Assembly (NCBI RefSeq): GCF_000264905.1
Contig: NW_006763147.1
Location: 1,169,709-1,233,708 of the forward strand
Source of the DNA: Stereum hirsutum FP-91666 SS1
Lineage: Eukaryota > Basidiomycota > Agaricomycetes > Russulales > Stereaceae
Length of the DNA stretch: 64,000 bases
Direction of reading: 5' to 3'
Shown here: one piece after another, positions 15,438-22,557 of the stretch
How positions within the stretch are numbered: position 1 is the first letter of the stretch
How the letters are laid out: each line of letters begins with the position of its first letter
Notes under the pieces: model-generated
Database searches by the model: none
The model's input: only the letters and a program-made list of their open reading frames with translations
What the model was told of the DNA's origin: nothing
Translations under genes and position numbers: made by a program

Positions 15438-15842
15438 GTTGAGAGTGTCAAAAGGTTGAAGAGGGTATGCGGATTTTTCAGGATGTTCAGGGCCTTCATA
15501 TACTCGATTGTCATAGTCTCACAGACGTCATGGGCATGGGCGCGTTCGTGCGGATTCAACTACAAGAAAAACTCAGTCCGATCAGCTGTTTCGGTCATAA
15601 TGCTGATGAGAACGCCGCGGGGACAACGATTGTTGTGTGGCCCACTCCTCCCATGATGTCATTGAGTGTAAAAAGCAGAGATCCCAGGCAATATCGATGA
15701 CAATTCGCCTGTATAATGCAAAATAACGGCAACGTCGCTCGGGGCTTTGAGTCGTTCCATAATCGTAATAATGCACATACCAATACATTTGTACACTCCG
15801 GTCCATTACCGCAACTGAAGACAAGACACCGCTACTTATATT
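15438..15842. other. Promoter region of PEBP1
   Basis: No gene seen. A TATA-like GAGTATATGAAGG lies about 60-65 nt upstream of the PEBP1 ATG on the minus strand. Confidence 0.4.
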
Positions 15843-16526
15843 TCAATACTTGAAGGCCATCAACGGTCTCTTGACCTGGCGTCTCTTCATAAACTCTGAA
15901 GGGCGCTTCATCAGCACACGATCGAGCAAAAACGACGAGAGACTCACTTCTTCGTGACCTTCCCTTCGTCCTATCTGTGGTAGTCGCGTTAGATGCAGGT
16001 ATTGTCGAATTAGAAGCATCTGGCCCGACAAGAATAAATGTTCCCCCGACGGGATCGCCCAGCCCGACTTTAGCAGCGAAAGAGCTGAGGTTGAAGCTCG
16101 TTCTCATTGTCGAAGAGTCCAGTATCGTCTGAGCGTCGAATCCATCCGGCTGCGAGAATAGGAGGAACACATATCTGAACAAATTAATCAGCATCAGCTT
16201 CTCATACGCACTCGCGGTTGTGACTTATTATGATAAACTTGGAGCAGAAAATAACGGCGTAAACATACCGATGTGGATCAGACCCCGCAGGTGGCGAAGG
16301 TTGCAAGAACTCCGACAGTGCTGCGCTCGAGTTCTTCAGCAGTTGGACGGCATCGCTACTGGACAAGGTTCCAGAAGTCGAATTTGGATCATTGCTCAAA
16401 GCGAAATTGCTGCCGAGAAAGTGGCGGATTTGAGCGCTGGTGGGTGCTTGTGGGGAGGGTGCGTCGAGGTCTATCATCGCGATGACGAAGGGTCCGGTGG
16501 TATCATTGTTGTTTGCGTTGGTGGTA

Positions 16527-16550
16527 CTGTACTTTTTCGACCAGACGTTC
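16527..16550. repeat. Left terminal inverted repeat of the 5.4-kb transposon
   Basis: 24 bp starting CTGTACTTTTTCGACC and ending CAGACGTTC in overlap. It is exactly complementary to 21911-21934. The TA at 16525-16526 is one half of the target duplication. Confidence 0.9.
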
Positions 16551-16952
16551 ATCAGTGGCGTGGGAATATGACTGTCCTAATCCAGGATGTCCACCCGTGC
16601 AGGTTCAAACTCGGGAGGGGACCGGGGACAGCATGTTCAGCATTCATGTTTCGTTACCGGGTGGAGGGCAATTTGCCGAACCTGTGTAAGTCACCTAGCA
16701 ACCCACTCCATATTTAGCACATTTTGACAAAGAGCCTATTCAACACTGCTATGGCTGTTCGATGACTGCTCGAGTTTGCCGTCCTGCATGTCGACAACAG
16801 CTCGATCTTCAGCTCCTCGCCGAGCACTCCGCGCGCATAGTCTCGAAAAAATTGCTATAGAATATACTGAGGAGGTGTGTATCCAGCTCAAGCTATTCAA
16901 TCTGACCTATCCAACTAACGGAGAAAGACGATCCAACCGGTGAAACATCAGC

Positions 16953-19900
16953 ATGCACTCCGACGATGACATCCTCACAGAATCGGCCTCGTCGCAGACA
17001 CTTCATGCATGACAATTGCTAAAGTGTTCCAGGGCAAAATTTCCACAAAATTTCCACGGCGCAGTCATGGTACGTCTTTCATCATTTGAGGACCATCGAT
17101 GGACGCTTATAAGGTTCGGTGAAAAAGGTCAGCATCCCTATCCACCACCTGCCATCCGAGGTAGTCGTTCATCTCAGCAAACACATCGAATCTGCGGCTT
17201 CCGAACAGGTTATGAGCACCACTCCCATTGGTACGTACTTCTCTGGTCAATCATGGTTGATTCCGTCTGTGGCGCCAATATTCAGATTATACTTACGCCA
17301 TTCTCTTCTGACTTCGCCCTTGTTTTAGATCCGAACCTTGTTGCATGGATAGGTCATGGAAGACGATGGCCCGGGTCATCGAAACGGCCGAGGTTTCTAA
17401 ACGATGCGTTCAAGGCAGCGGTTCGCTACCCGCGAGATTATGATTCCTTCGTACCCGCGTCCGACCTCAGCATCGTCGAATTCATTGCTATGGACTTACC
17501 ACGGGTCTCCACCACGCCCTCTGTCGACTTTGTCGACGAATTATTCTCCTTCGAGCCAGCCTTCGCCGAACCCTTACCGATCTTAGCCATTGATATGCCT
17601 CCCGCCGATCTCCTTCACAAAATTTGGGACATGCTCCCGCAAAAATGGCTAGATGGCTATCAATCTATTCGTGGGCTTTCTTCGCACTACAATATTCCTT
17701 TCTGCATAATCTCCCTCTGGATGGACCTTCTATCCGCTACGACCATGCAGCCCCGATGGATGCGAGCTTACTCCTGGTTTCATAACATTGCACTCCCTCT
17801 CCCCGTTCCGGCTCATCTCTCATACATTCCCAACGCGATTGAACGTTTCTTCGAGGTCATGGGATGGGACGTTCATCTGTGTGGTCCCTCGTCCTTGAAG
17901 TCGACACACCTCATTGAGCTTTTTGGACGAGGGATGCTTAGCGGGAGAATTGTTGAGAGCGGCATGGAGATGTTTCGCAACTGGGCCTCGCAAGATCCCG
18001 GCCTCCGCACTGTCCAGGTCGAAACATTCGATTTTCAATACCCGTTTACCGTCAAAGACATCGACTGGTCGACCTTCGCCGACGACGACCACCACAGTCA
18101 CTTCGGATACCTCCGTACGATCGCTCAGGCCATCCGTAGTTCTCACATCACCAAGATCATCGCTCCCATCCACATTCCCAATGTCGACCACTTCTCGGCA
18201 GCTTCAATCGACTTTGTAGATGGCACCATTAGCTACGGTGATGGCCTCGGGTTCTCTATGCCGGGGCGAGATTTTGAGGGAGTTAGGAATTTAGGAGAGA
18301 AGGCGGGAAAACCCTTACTTCACTCGTGGCGGCAGATGGAACGACCGGTGCAGGATGATGGATTTTCTTGCGGGATCATTGCGTTGAATGTTTGCGAGAA
18401 AGAGCTCTGGCCACAGACACGGTTATGGGAGTCTGCCACAAAGGACTTCGAGAGGATTGAGTTTGCACTTCTCCTTGCCACAGGAGCGGGATGCTCTTAT
18501 TCTTTGGTACGTGAAATTTCCCTCAAAGTCATCAAACAACATCTAATTCTTCTAACACTGATAGGAGGATTTTGGAGTCAACTCAGACATCATCACCGCA
18601 CGTCATGATGGTCGTCGTGCTGCTCGCACGCCACTTACTCCTTCACAACGCTCGGATTTGATTCCTCCTCCTCCTCCTCCTCCTCCTCCTCCTCCTCCCA
18701 GCCAACCAATCTCCGCATCGACGTCATCTTCAGAACCCGAGAGCGACGAGTGTGAGGGGAGTGAATGGGACATGTTGTATGATGACGGTGAGGAGGATGC
18801 ACTGTTGTCTACGTTACGTGATCGTGCTGCCGTTGAGCGTCTGCAACATCGTGAGTATAGTTATGCACATATCTTTTACTATATCCCTGCTGATGTTATG
18901 TTCCTAGAACTTTCAGCTGCCGTCACACTGCCCGCACATGTTTCAAGGACTTCAGGGTGTTCCGCCGCCGCAGACATAAGGACACCATCCCTGTCATCTC
19001 CCATATCGACATCTCAGAAACGCTCTGTTAGGAAAGCCAACTTTCCATTCACTCGGACACCCGGTCCCGTCCCAACATCCCGCTTCGACGAGCCTTACGA
19101 CGATGACGAACTCAGTGATGCTGACTCAGACGGGCTCGATGACCTAGACGACTTATTCCGTATCTTAGCCACTACGCCCGCCACTCCCTTGGCCTCTAGC
19201 GACGTAGAGTTGGATGTGGCTCAGATGGACGTTGATCGCCATCCTTCATCCGTGTCTCAGCTACCAACAGCTGCATGTACACCTATCGCTTCCACACCGC
19301 ATGTCATCGACACTTCCAAGGATTCCGTCTGGTCTCATGCCGTCGATAGCCACAATCGCCTCATCCGAGCCCTCCCATCCAGAGTCAATGACGATCGTCT
19401 TCAGCAGTCCAGTCTCCAGTCGTTCTTCCCAAAACTCACTCGCGAGGAGGCCGAGACGAGACGCTGTGCTACGAAGATAGAGAGAATGGAGCGGGAGCGG
19501 GATGAACGGGAGATGGCAAGTCGGAGGGAGAAGGTTAGCAAGCTGGTTAAGAAGAAACATAGTAGGCAGCGGGAGAGGGAGAAGAAGCGGAGGTATCGAC
19601 AGCGCAAGAAGGCCAAGAAGGTACTTGTCTGTTTTACTTCGAGTTTGGTGTTTTGTCACTAACCATCGTTTCCAGGAGGCTCTACAGGCTGCAGCCTCTG
19701 ATCCAGGAAACACACAGGCTCTTGTCCAGGTCGAAGGCAACAACCCCACCACAATTCCTATCACACCTGACGACACACGACCTTTCCGACTCTTCAAGGA
19801 GCTCGCTCGCCAGAGTCGTGATAAGCGAGGACGGAAACGCAAAAACCCACCATCGAGTGCCACGCGCTACAACTGGATCAACCCGGCCATCTTCCAACAA

Positions 19901-21752
19901 ATCAGCACAGCGGCACGCGAGGTTGGCCCGTCGATGTCTCCAACTGAAATCGTCAGCCTTCTTCGGTCTCGCAATCCTGCACAGTTCTCCCGGCTCACGG
20001 CCCAGGTCATCGGACGATGGATCGAACGGCCCAAGAATGCTCCCGCTCGGTGGAAAGAGAAGGTCCTTGCTCGTGTCAGACTCGGGAACAAGCCTCTCGG
20101 ACATACTACACGTAGTGGTATTTTGGTATGTCATTCCCTCGGGACTCCGTTTTCCTTACTTTCGCTCATCCAAAAATACGCGTTACAGTCCTTGTTTCCC
20201 GAGCTTGTGGACATCATTGTGGCGCAACTCAAATTCCTTCGCGCGGCGGGAATCCCTTTGGACACCACTACTTGCCGTGCCATCATGCTAGCCTTAATCA
20301 CTCACCACACACCACAGCTTCTTCGCACCACTGTCTCTCGCGATGGCAGTACTTTCCGCTGCTCCAACACCTTTGTGCGCAAATTCGTCTACAACCACCT
20401 TCGTTGGGTTCCTCGAGTCTCTACACGTGCTGCTCAGAAGACGCCAGTCGACGCTGAGCAGCAGATATGGGAGCTATTCCTCCGTCTCGCACTCTGGGTC
20501 CGCGACGCCGGCGTCCGGCACCCTTCTCTTATCGTCAACTTTGATCAGACGCAGGTAGTCATCGCTGACAACAATGCACACACATTTGCCGAGGAGGGTT
20601 CGAAGCAGGTTGGCGTGAACGGAAAGGAAGAGAAACGAGCGTTCACATCGGTCGTCGGCATCTCAGCATCCGGCAATGTCCTTCCCTCCCAGCTCATCTT
20701 CAAAGGCGGCTCAGACCGGTCTCTTCCCTCCCCGAGCGCCCCCGCCCGAGACGAAGCTTCGCGCCTTGGGTTCCTCTACAGCTGGAACCCCAACAATTAC
20801 TGGTCGAGCCTTTCCCTCATGGAGACGTACATGGAGACCATCATTGTGCCATACTTTATGCATCAGAAGCAGCTGCTGGGCTATGCGGAGGATCAGGAAT
20901 GTGTGGCCATCCTCGACTGCTGGTCCGTACATCGCAGCAAGGAGTTTCGTCACATTGTACGTCGAAGGTGGCCCTGGTTGCGACTGCGATATATTCCCGG
21001 CGGTACTACTGGTCTCGCACAACCATGCGACGTTGGAGTTCAGCGGCCGTACAAGTTATCAATCAAACGCTCACAGCTCCAGGACACGGTCGACGAAACA
21101 CTTAGTCAGCTCGACACCACTGAGGATCCCTCTGCTTTGAGACTCGACACACGCATCGGCACCTTACGTGATCGGTCTGTAGGCTGGGTCGTAAAAGCGT
21201 GGAAGGACGTGAATGATCCTGCTTTGATTCGAAAGGTGCGTTCTTCTATACCTTACTCTTACATTTTCCATTTTCGCCATGCTCACTCTCTCCTTTTTGT
21301 AGGCCTTTGAACGATGTGAAGTGCGCGGGGGGTTCAACCTGTCTTTCGAGTCGTTATCCAGCTCGGCAGCCCTTAAGGTTCTGCGGGAGCTTCCTCGCAC
21401 GGACCCCGAGCTTTGGGCACGAGTGTCTCAGTCACTGCTCGATGACGATGATGTGTGCGTAGACGAGTCGGATCCAATCGAAGGTAGTCCCACCGATGCT
21501 GTGGCAGAGGGACCTTTCGAAGAGGATGAGGACTTCGAGGACGACACTTGGATTGAGCCCGCTCAGTTGATGGCACAGATGCTCGGCGCGGTCGCCGATA
21601 GGCAGCCTGCATCTTCTGTGGGCCAGACGGGTTTAGCGGATCACGATGAGGTAGATCTGCAGGATGTCAATGTACCCGCTGCTGATGAGATGGGTCGTGG
21701 TAAGCGGCGGCGTACGGCGAATAGGATGTTCGACGGCTTTGTAGGACATTAA
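16953..21752 (+). CDS. Transposase: N-terminal Ulp1/C48-like protease, basic coiled region, C-terminal DDE_1 transposase
   Basis: About 1,400 aa from one spliced gene; in-frame GT-AG introns lie at 18507-18564, 18851-18907, 19621-19675, 20126-20188 and 21236-21302, plus one or two near the 5' end. The first exon and start codon are uncertain (ATG 16953 is the best candidate). Part 1 ends in a Ulp1-type peptidase: His in NVDHFSAASIDF (codon 18189), then Gln and Cys in VQDDGFSCGIIALN (codons 18351 and 18369). A run of 12 prolines, an acidic Ser-rich linker and a Lys/Arg/Glu-rich helical region (about 19440-19620) follow. Next come HTH-like helices (YNWINPAIFQQISTAAREV, ALWVRDAG further on) and the DDE_1 core: NFDQTQV (D at 20543), AILDCWSVHRS (D at 20915), GLAQPCDVGVQRPY (D at 21029). 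The acidic tail ends with a basic KRRR motif. Confidence 0.88.
18664..18699 (+). repeat. CCT microsatellite coding for polyproline
   Basis: Run of CCT triplets encoding 12 consecutive prolines in the linker between the protease and transposase halves of the element-encoded protein. Confidence 0.85.
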
Positions 21753-21910
21753 GCATGTAGAAAAGCCCTTCAATAATATTATTTCAGTTGTTTTGGCGAT
21801 TTCTTCACGAATTTGACCGTATGTCCACCCCTCAGAGTTCGTCTCGCCACCGGGACAGTGGACTGTCCCCTCTAGGAGGTTCAGTTCACAGGTATCAGGG
21901 GACAGGGGAC

Positions 21911-21934
21911 GAACGTCTGGTCGAAAAAGTACAG
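21911..21934. repeat. Right terminal inverted repeat of the 5.4-kb transposon
   Basis: 24 bp, an exact inverted copy of 16527-16550, followed by the TA of the target duplication at 21935-21936. Confidence 0.9.
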
Positions 21935-21980
21935 TAATACCGAATTCGGGTGGAATAGCGGTCTCTGGAAGCGACGATGA

Positions 21981-22557
21981 TAGGGCTCCGACAAAAAGTC
22001 CTGAGCCAATGATACCCTGTGTTAGTAACTCGGCGGCCCCCGAGGGACTTTTTTACAGGTGTTAAAAACAGTTAAAAACAGAATATTTAAATCGATTTAA
22101 ATATTATATTTTCCCTCAGGAGCTGCCAGTTTCGACTGACCTGGAGGGCTTTCAAAGCACTAGCGGTCTTTTGAGCATCTCCGGTTACTACTTGAACTCC
22201 TAGACGAGTTCTACAGCACATACACTCATAATATGTGAGGCCGTTGGCGAGAACACGCACCGTAGACTCGGAAGCTGTGGCTGGCAGTCAACGTCGTGGG
22301 AATAGGTCAGGGTAAAGTCATGTTTAGGTCGGGTTAGGGGCCCTAGAGGATGGAATACGACGTCGGGAGTTGGTCAGGAACTCCAAAGAGTCTTCCCTGA
22401 ACGCGTATCTACTCGTCCAGTCGTCAGGATTTCTTACACTTTTTTACAGATCTATATAGCACCGTATCGGGAGGGTTGTTAATAACAAGTTATAAACAGT
22501 TATTAACAGCACTTTTTTACAGCTGTTATTAACTCCCGACTTATTGTCGGAGCCCTA
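21981..22557. mobile_element. MITE-2, hAT-like non-autonomous element
   Basis: A 577-bp insert with 14-bp perfect terminal inverted repeats (TAGGGCTCCGACAA), extending to 18 bp with one mismatch, flanked by the exact 8-bp duplication GACGATGA (21973-21980 and 22558-22565). Three copies of ACTTTTTTACAG lie near the ends (about 22049, 22439, 22509), together with repeated TTAAAAACAG and TTATTAACAG motifs. Such subterminal repeats are typical of hAT transposase-binding regions. It has no coding capacity. It sits in intron 2 of PEBP2. Its ends differ from MITE-1, so it belongs to another subfamily. Confidence 0.85.

Follow-up and report, generated by a model that had tools for sequence, protein, structure and literature searches.

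A TA-flanked Stereum hirsutum transposon predicted to join a Ulp1-type protease to a DDE_1 transposase, and probable exchange of the protease between transposon families of mushroom fungi

Positions 16527-21934 of a 64 kb stretch of the Stereum hirsutum genome (the whole of which we call the window) hold a transposon of 5,408 bases, flanked by TA, with one predicted gene whose product joins an N-terminal Ulp1/SENP-type protease to a DDE_1 transposase. We lean slightly towards a reading in which the protease frees host proteins at the ends of the element from SUMO or a related tag, so that the element would escape silencing. Beyond this single element, DNA transposons of mushroom fungi probably swap an N-terminal, in-frame SUMO-protease cassette between unrelated transposase superfamilies, with at least one clear capture in Peniophora, so that the cassette would act as a transferable anti-silencing module. 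The ends, the TA flanks, the exon of the empty site, the open frame, the catalytic residues and the order of the parts are read directly from the sequence; splicing and folds are predicted.

One predicted gene for protease and transposase

The gene predicted in the Stereum element (hereafter the query) runs from an ATG at 17009 to a TAA at 21752 and has eight exons and a stop-free spliced frame of 1,430 codons, in keeping with the original prediction of a single spliced gene of about 1,400 codons. The two introns named in that prediction, 18507-18564 and 19621-19675, fit the model; the first joins the Ulp1 frame with a linker, which the second joins with the transposase. Five more are predicted (17070-17113, 17231-17328, 18851-18916, 20126-20188 and 21236-21302). 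Introns 18851-18916 and 20126-20188 each have a length divisible by three, so that retaining or removing them leaves the frame open. The exon model is a prediction from sequence alone.

The peptide motifs by which both halves had been recognised (NVDHFS, QDDGFSCG, NFDQT, LDCWSVH and AQPCDVGV) are all present. Within the protease module, alignment and fold prediction place a His-Asp-Gln-Cys set on a Ulp1 fold, as in proteases of the Ulp1/C48 type, and SUMO proteases come out on top in both the sequence-profile and the fold comparison, with fold scores that lie close together. Profile searches, proposed at the outset for both halves, gave an uneven answer: Pfam matched DDE_1 in the query exons, where the core is of the mariner type with an acidic triad, whereas Peptidase_C48 (PF02902) had no match in the query up to E 10, yet was found in more than half of the database relatives described below. 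A single-sequence search of PDB with the Ulp1 exon was likewise without a match. Pfam gave no match to a KDZ-type transposase in the query exons, where DDE_1 does match (no dedicated KDZ profile was run). DNA-binding domains of the CENP-B/Psq and Tc5 types found no Pfam match in the query exons or in 25 relatives, a search in which weak profile matches could be missed, and NCBIfam returned no DNA-binding match, only a sub-threshold one to IS630. We therefore describe the conserved region that precedes the transposase core as no more than presumably DNA-binding.

The fusion recurs in the genome and across basidiomycetes

A diverged full-length paralogue, L059 (C15:1180303-1185494, 5,192 bases, ends CTGTACCATTTCGA..., TA on both sides), was modelled with five exons and about 1,426 codons, its parts in the same order as in the query; the exon model was picked by eye, and many other acceptor choices also keep the frame open. 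Its four introns, all of phase 0, correspond to those starting at 18507, 19621, 20126 and 21236 of the query. Two of them share an alignment column with their counterparts, a third lies three columns away and the fourth 21 columns away, where the linker aligns poorly. Identity to the query is 37% in the DDE half and 17% in the Ulp1 half, and PF02902 matched L059 with E 0.013, short of its curated cut-off. Degraded relatives lie on C13 (linker and both halves), at C9:785766-811709 (ends kept, large insertions between the halves) and on C15 (a Ulp1 remnant). Within the C9 copy, L057 has open frames of equal translation in opposite orientations, a sign of nested insertion with long inverted arms.

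A protein search (DDE part inside full length) found at least 25 database relatives, 24 of the 25 named as basidiomycetes, from the genera Hericium, Peniophora, Mycena, Trametes, Cerrena, Agaricus, Suillus, Rhizoctonia, Pholiota, Psilocybe, Agrocybe, Ceratobasidium and Lyophyllum; the whole-length search of the query gave at least one match. Since the DDE-part search scored the best 7,992 candidates, and the whole-length and second-family searches about 8,000 each, these lists are incomplete. In 23 of the 25 matches listed, one chain holds the transposase together with the Ulp1 Cys region; one of the 23, P0010, is annotated from just before the catalytic Gln, and P0011 and P0020 are annotated from the linker on. 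At E 0.01, Pfam found DDE_1 in 21 of the 25 and Peptidase_C48 in 14. The Ulp1 His, Asp, Gln and Cys are conserved in every aligned row with a letter at those positions, and over 19 rows identity to the query is 14-43% in the protease half and 37-62% in the DDE half. As judged from these predicted proteins, the Ulp1-DDE_1 fusion is a widespread basidiomycete family with a constant order of parts, and the original view of two cores in one chain thus holds well beyond the query. Had the two domains always been separate in homologues, a mis-assembled junction would have been suspected; since L059 and 23 of the 25 relatives carry both parts in one chain, the fusion is not an artefact of the junction.

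Exchange of the protease with a second transposon family

Matches to the Ulp1 half led to a second, unrelated 8.0 kb element in the same genome, L061 (C6:1494548-1502574; L061 2049-9001 plus L065 1-1074), with 21-base ends and a six-base duplication, GTCACT, which sits between two parts of a gene for a FAD-dependent oxidoreductase (PF01266, E 5.3e-16 and 1.4e-13). Its predicted chain of 1,781 codons is incomplete and starts with an N-terminal Ulp1 module (PF02902, E 1.9e-7), followed by a different transposase-like part without a clear Pfam family; a P-element helix-turn-helix was matched weakly in four of 21 relatives (best E 0.01). A hydrophobic stretch lies near the N-terminus of the L061 chain, and hydrophobic N-terminal stretches also occur in two Peniophora proteins of the DDE_1 type, P0002 and P0003. 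This second type, the larger of the two families, has at least 69 database matches, two of them from Rhizophagus; the other named ones belong to genera that we take to be basidiomycetes. A profile built from the DDE_1-type proteases alone matched 90 of 97 sequences. These comprise 25 of the 27 DDE_1-type sequences and 65 of the 70 second-type ones, the latter being L061 plus 64 of the 69 database sequences.

A tree of 58 protease rows (21 of the 25 DDE_1-type and 37 of the 65 second-type matches, drawn from the 83 of the 90 with a long enough protease stretch) shows the proteases of the two types interleaved; the type changes four times, and starred branches force at least three of these changes. 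A single clade of DDE_1-type proteases, a group set by transposase type and tested after this tree was made, was rejected in the approximately unbiased (AU) test (p-AU 3.6e-86), as it was with three rows set aside, a choice made after seeing a tree (8.8e-5). The clearest case is that of P0002 and P0003, which represent two places because their contigs differ in length. Their DDE halves are 60% and 55% identical to that of the query and fall in its clade (100/100), whereas their proteases have 18% identity to that of the query, reach 37% and 42% to members of the second family, and nest inside that family next to a Peniophora protein (100/89).

Four further AU tests used groups that were also chosen after seeing a tree. 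Protease data rejected P0002 and P0003 forced together with the query and P0004 (p 0.0016), and DDE data rejected the protease grouping (p 1e-41). The protease tree of 20 rows rejected the DDE clade more weakly (p 0.029), and DDE data for the same 20 rows left a clade of the query with two Hericium proteins unrejected (p 0.09). These 20 of the 27 rows exclude P0010, P0011, P0019, P0020, P0023, P0024 and P0025. FastTree trees of the two halves share nine of 17 splits (r 0.69, a value as high in 0 of 2,000 permutations), and the Peniophora swap is one among several well-supported conflicts between them. From these trees, in which long branches are present, we infer that the protease has been exchanged between transposon families, in whichever direction and however often.

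Insertion site and short elements with the same ends

The terminal inverted repeats of the query, CTGTACTTTTTCGACCAGACGTTC, agree in 24 of 24 bases and are bordered by TA on both sides, which confirms the exact 24-bp ends and the TA duplication first described (Table 1). The element splits a coding exon of a PEBP-type host gene on the minus strand (window 15832-16526 and 21937-22052). When the flanks are joined with a single TA, an open frame of 146 codons results. PF01161 matches 130 of its residues (E 1.2e-9); a further exon-like stretch of 82 residues, which comes next, had no match in a Pfam search. Since the host exon reads through once the element and one TA are removed, the empty-site frame is direct evidence that the transposon inserted at TA, and since the interrupted exon still reads through in the joined flanks, this suggests a fairly recent insertion. 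The TA target-site duplication of the IS630-Tc1-mariner group is thus found both in the TA before copies of the end and in the restored host frame. The query copy is predicted to be mobile.

TA followed by the 24-base end occurs with zero mismatches at both ends of the query and at one further site, C15:1078238; there (L062 2741 onward), all 372 readable bases agree with the element's left end, and the site may belong to a second recent copy. The end's first 16 bases have 91 copies in the genome, 89 of them preceded by TA, while the reversed 16-base pattern, used as a control, has none genome-wide. Among 34 pairs of facing neighbour ends, 30 are spaced 149-278 bases apart (19 of these exactly 267), and the remaining four are the query element and three longer spans. 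At least 15 further stretches of 42-105 bases have 74-93% identity to one of the ends. The short TA-flanked stretches are likely to be non-autonomous elements mobilised by the query transposase or a related one.

Table 1 Features of the transposon, in window coordinates
Feature	Coordinates	Strand	Basis
Left TA of target-site duplication	16525..16526	no strand	sequence
Left terminal inverted repeat, 24 bases	16527..16550	+	24/24 identity to right end
Predicted gene, exons	17009-17069, 17114-17230, 17329-18506, 18565-18850, 18917-19620, 19676-20125, 20189-21235, 21303-21752	+	open spliced frame; L059 introns at corresponding places
Ulp1/SENP-type protease module, residues 61-452; predicted catalytic H347, D364, Q401, C407	17331..18506	+	
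Linker, Ser/Thr/Pro- and Asp/Glu-rich, charged basic stretch at end, predicted intron 18851-18916	18565..19620	+	
PIP-box-like motif QSSLQSFF, residues 711-718, within linker	19405..19428	+	
Conserved region preceding transposase core, presumed DNA-binding	19676..20125	+	family consensus conservation; role inferred
DDE_1 transposase core; D1051, D1175, D1213	20189..21235	+	
Right terminal inverted repeat	21911..21934	-	24/24 identity to left end
Right TA of target-site duplication	21935..21936	no strand	sequence

Motifs in the linker

The motif [VILM]xx[FYW][FYW] is present in 22 of the 27 linkers of the family, where shuffles predict 3.2, and stands at the aligned place in 21 of the 27 rows. 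The canonical PCNA-interacting protein (PIP) box with its Gln is found in three linkers, that of the query (QSSLQSFF) included; we rejected it as a family feature on this count and restrict the claim to a PIP-like motif, through which the linker may dock on PCNA. A charged stretch lies downstream of the motif, at about residues 740-785. Chromatin assembly factor 1 likewise combines a PCNA box with a charged region; a match of a family profile to that factor in the linker region (E 1.6e-4) looks compositional and was not used. Excerpts of PMC5371812 describe a pogo transposase that binds PCNA and has a PIP box, which the linker motif resembles. SUMO sites of the form [VILMF]KxE/D are absent from the query and occur at least once in 21 of the 27 family members, for which chance may suffice at such lengths; their count was therefore of no use as a test for the transposase as substrate.

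What the protease may do

In the reading that we slightly favour, the DDE_1 transposase would be a mariner-type cut-and-paste enzyme acting at TA, as its Pfam match, fold and flanks suggest; the region ahead of it would bind DNA, the PIP-like motif would dock the chain on PCNA, and the protease would act on host chromatin or repair proteins at the ends of the element, freeing them of SUMO or a related tag. Excision and insertion could thereby escape SUMO-dependent silencing. Desumoylation of the transposase or of chromatin, which the original prediction put forward, may be part of such a cycle. A protease on the same chain as the transposase, with a long linker between them, might instead cut that linker and free the transposase, much as related viral proteases process precursors. 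Ulp1-type enzymes cleave behind the Gly-Gly of a ubiquitin-like fold, however. Pfam detects no domain of that kind in the query exons, and Gly-Gly occurs in just eight of the 27 linkers, neither that of the query nor that of L059 among them. We hold such self-processing to be quite unlikely, and the absence of Gly-Gly from the query and L059 linkers suggests that the protease would act on host conjugates and not on its own chain. A smallish chance falls to the removal of ubiquitin or NEDD8 rather than SUMO, in which case the transposase would be stabilised or repair ligases would be the target; the best matches by profile and fold are SUMO proteases, albeit with fold scores close to one another.

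The gene model is a prediction, and the annotated starts of P0010, P0011 and P0020 would suit two neighbouring, separately transcribed genes or a mis-joined model. Against this, the linker frame is open into both halves, short phase-0 introns stand at the junctions in the query and in L059, and most annotated relatives join both parts, at least from the Cys region on, so that we think separate genes very improbable. The least credit of all goes to a passenger captured by chance that has no role in transposition: the much faster divergence of the protease half would fit it, but the catalytic residues are kept in all rows with a letter there, and the clearest swap brought in another complete Ulp1. 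An active site kept despite deep divergence, and a module replaced by another complete one, argue for a needed function of the protease.

Relation to known systems and significance

Elements of the pogo/Tigger/Fot1 type have a DDE_1 domain and duplicate TA. The excerpted literature does not ascribe a Ulp1 domain to them, and the query differs in having no detected pogo-type DNA-binding domain. Plant CACTA-ULP and Mutator-ULP elements are reportedly the subject of Hoen 2006 and van Leeuwen 2007. They are, in the excerpts of PMC2528002, cut-and-paste transposons with a ULP1 domain like the query, with rice proteins that combine Tnp2 and ULP1, but their transposases belong to superfamilies other than DDE_1. 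Ginger1, according to excerpts of PMC2836005, has a Ulp1 (PF02902) or OTU domain at the C-terminus of a Gypsy-integrase-type transposase with an H2C2 zinc finger and a GPY/F motif; in Ginger1 as in the query, a single chain holds a transposase and a Ulp1 catalytic domain, whereas the query has a DDE_1/mariner-type transposase, an N-terminal Ulp1 and TA as its target. CryptonF and CryptonS carry a related C48 peptidase, in CryptonS as an additional protein, together with a tyrosine recombinase, which sets them apart (PMC3212892, in part). Across these excerpts, Ulp1-type proteases are placed on Ginger1, CACTA, Mutator, Crypton and Polinton elements, and none with DDE_1. A Ulp1-transposase fusion as such is not new, because the Ginger1 and plant CACTA cases are in print; this corrects the original prediction, which gave Ulp1 proteases of DNA transposons as separate genes and called the fusion with a DDE_1 transposase not well described. 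Neither the Ulp1-DDE_1 combination nor protease exchange between superfamilies appeared in a full-text literature search, which did not extend to Repbase reports, where an earlier description is possible.

A precedent for exchange is offered by the TET/JBP dioxygenases, which excerpts of PMC12730594 place on several fungal transposon superfamilies, passed among them in Agaricomycetes and thought to counter silencing. No protease is involved there, and the main text of that paper uses none of the terms Ulp1, protease, peptidase, SUMO, mariner or pogo; the SUMO-protease cassette would be a protein counterpart of these exchanged genes.

The guess raised in PMC2836005, in its excerpted text, that transposon Ulp1 domains participate in transposition becomes testable here in one polypeptide with known ends, for which the short TA-flanked elements may be ready substrates. 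Should protease activity prove necessary, SUMO-dependent control would have stood in the way of transposons from several superfamilies, which have had to remove this barrier, and from the swapped cassette one could tell what part of the host these transposons work against.

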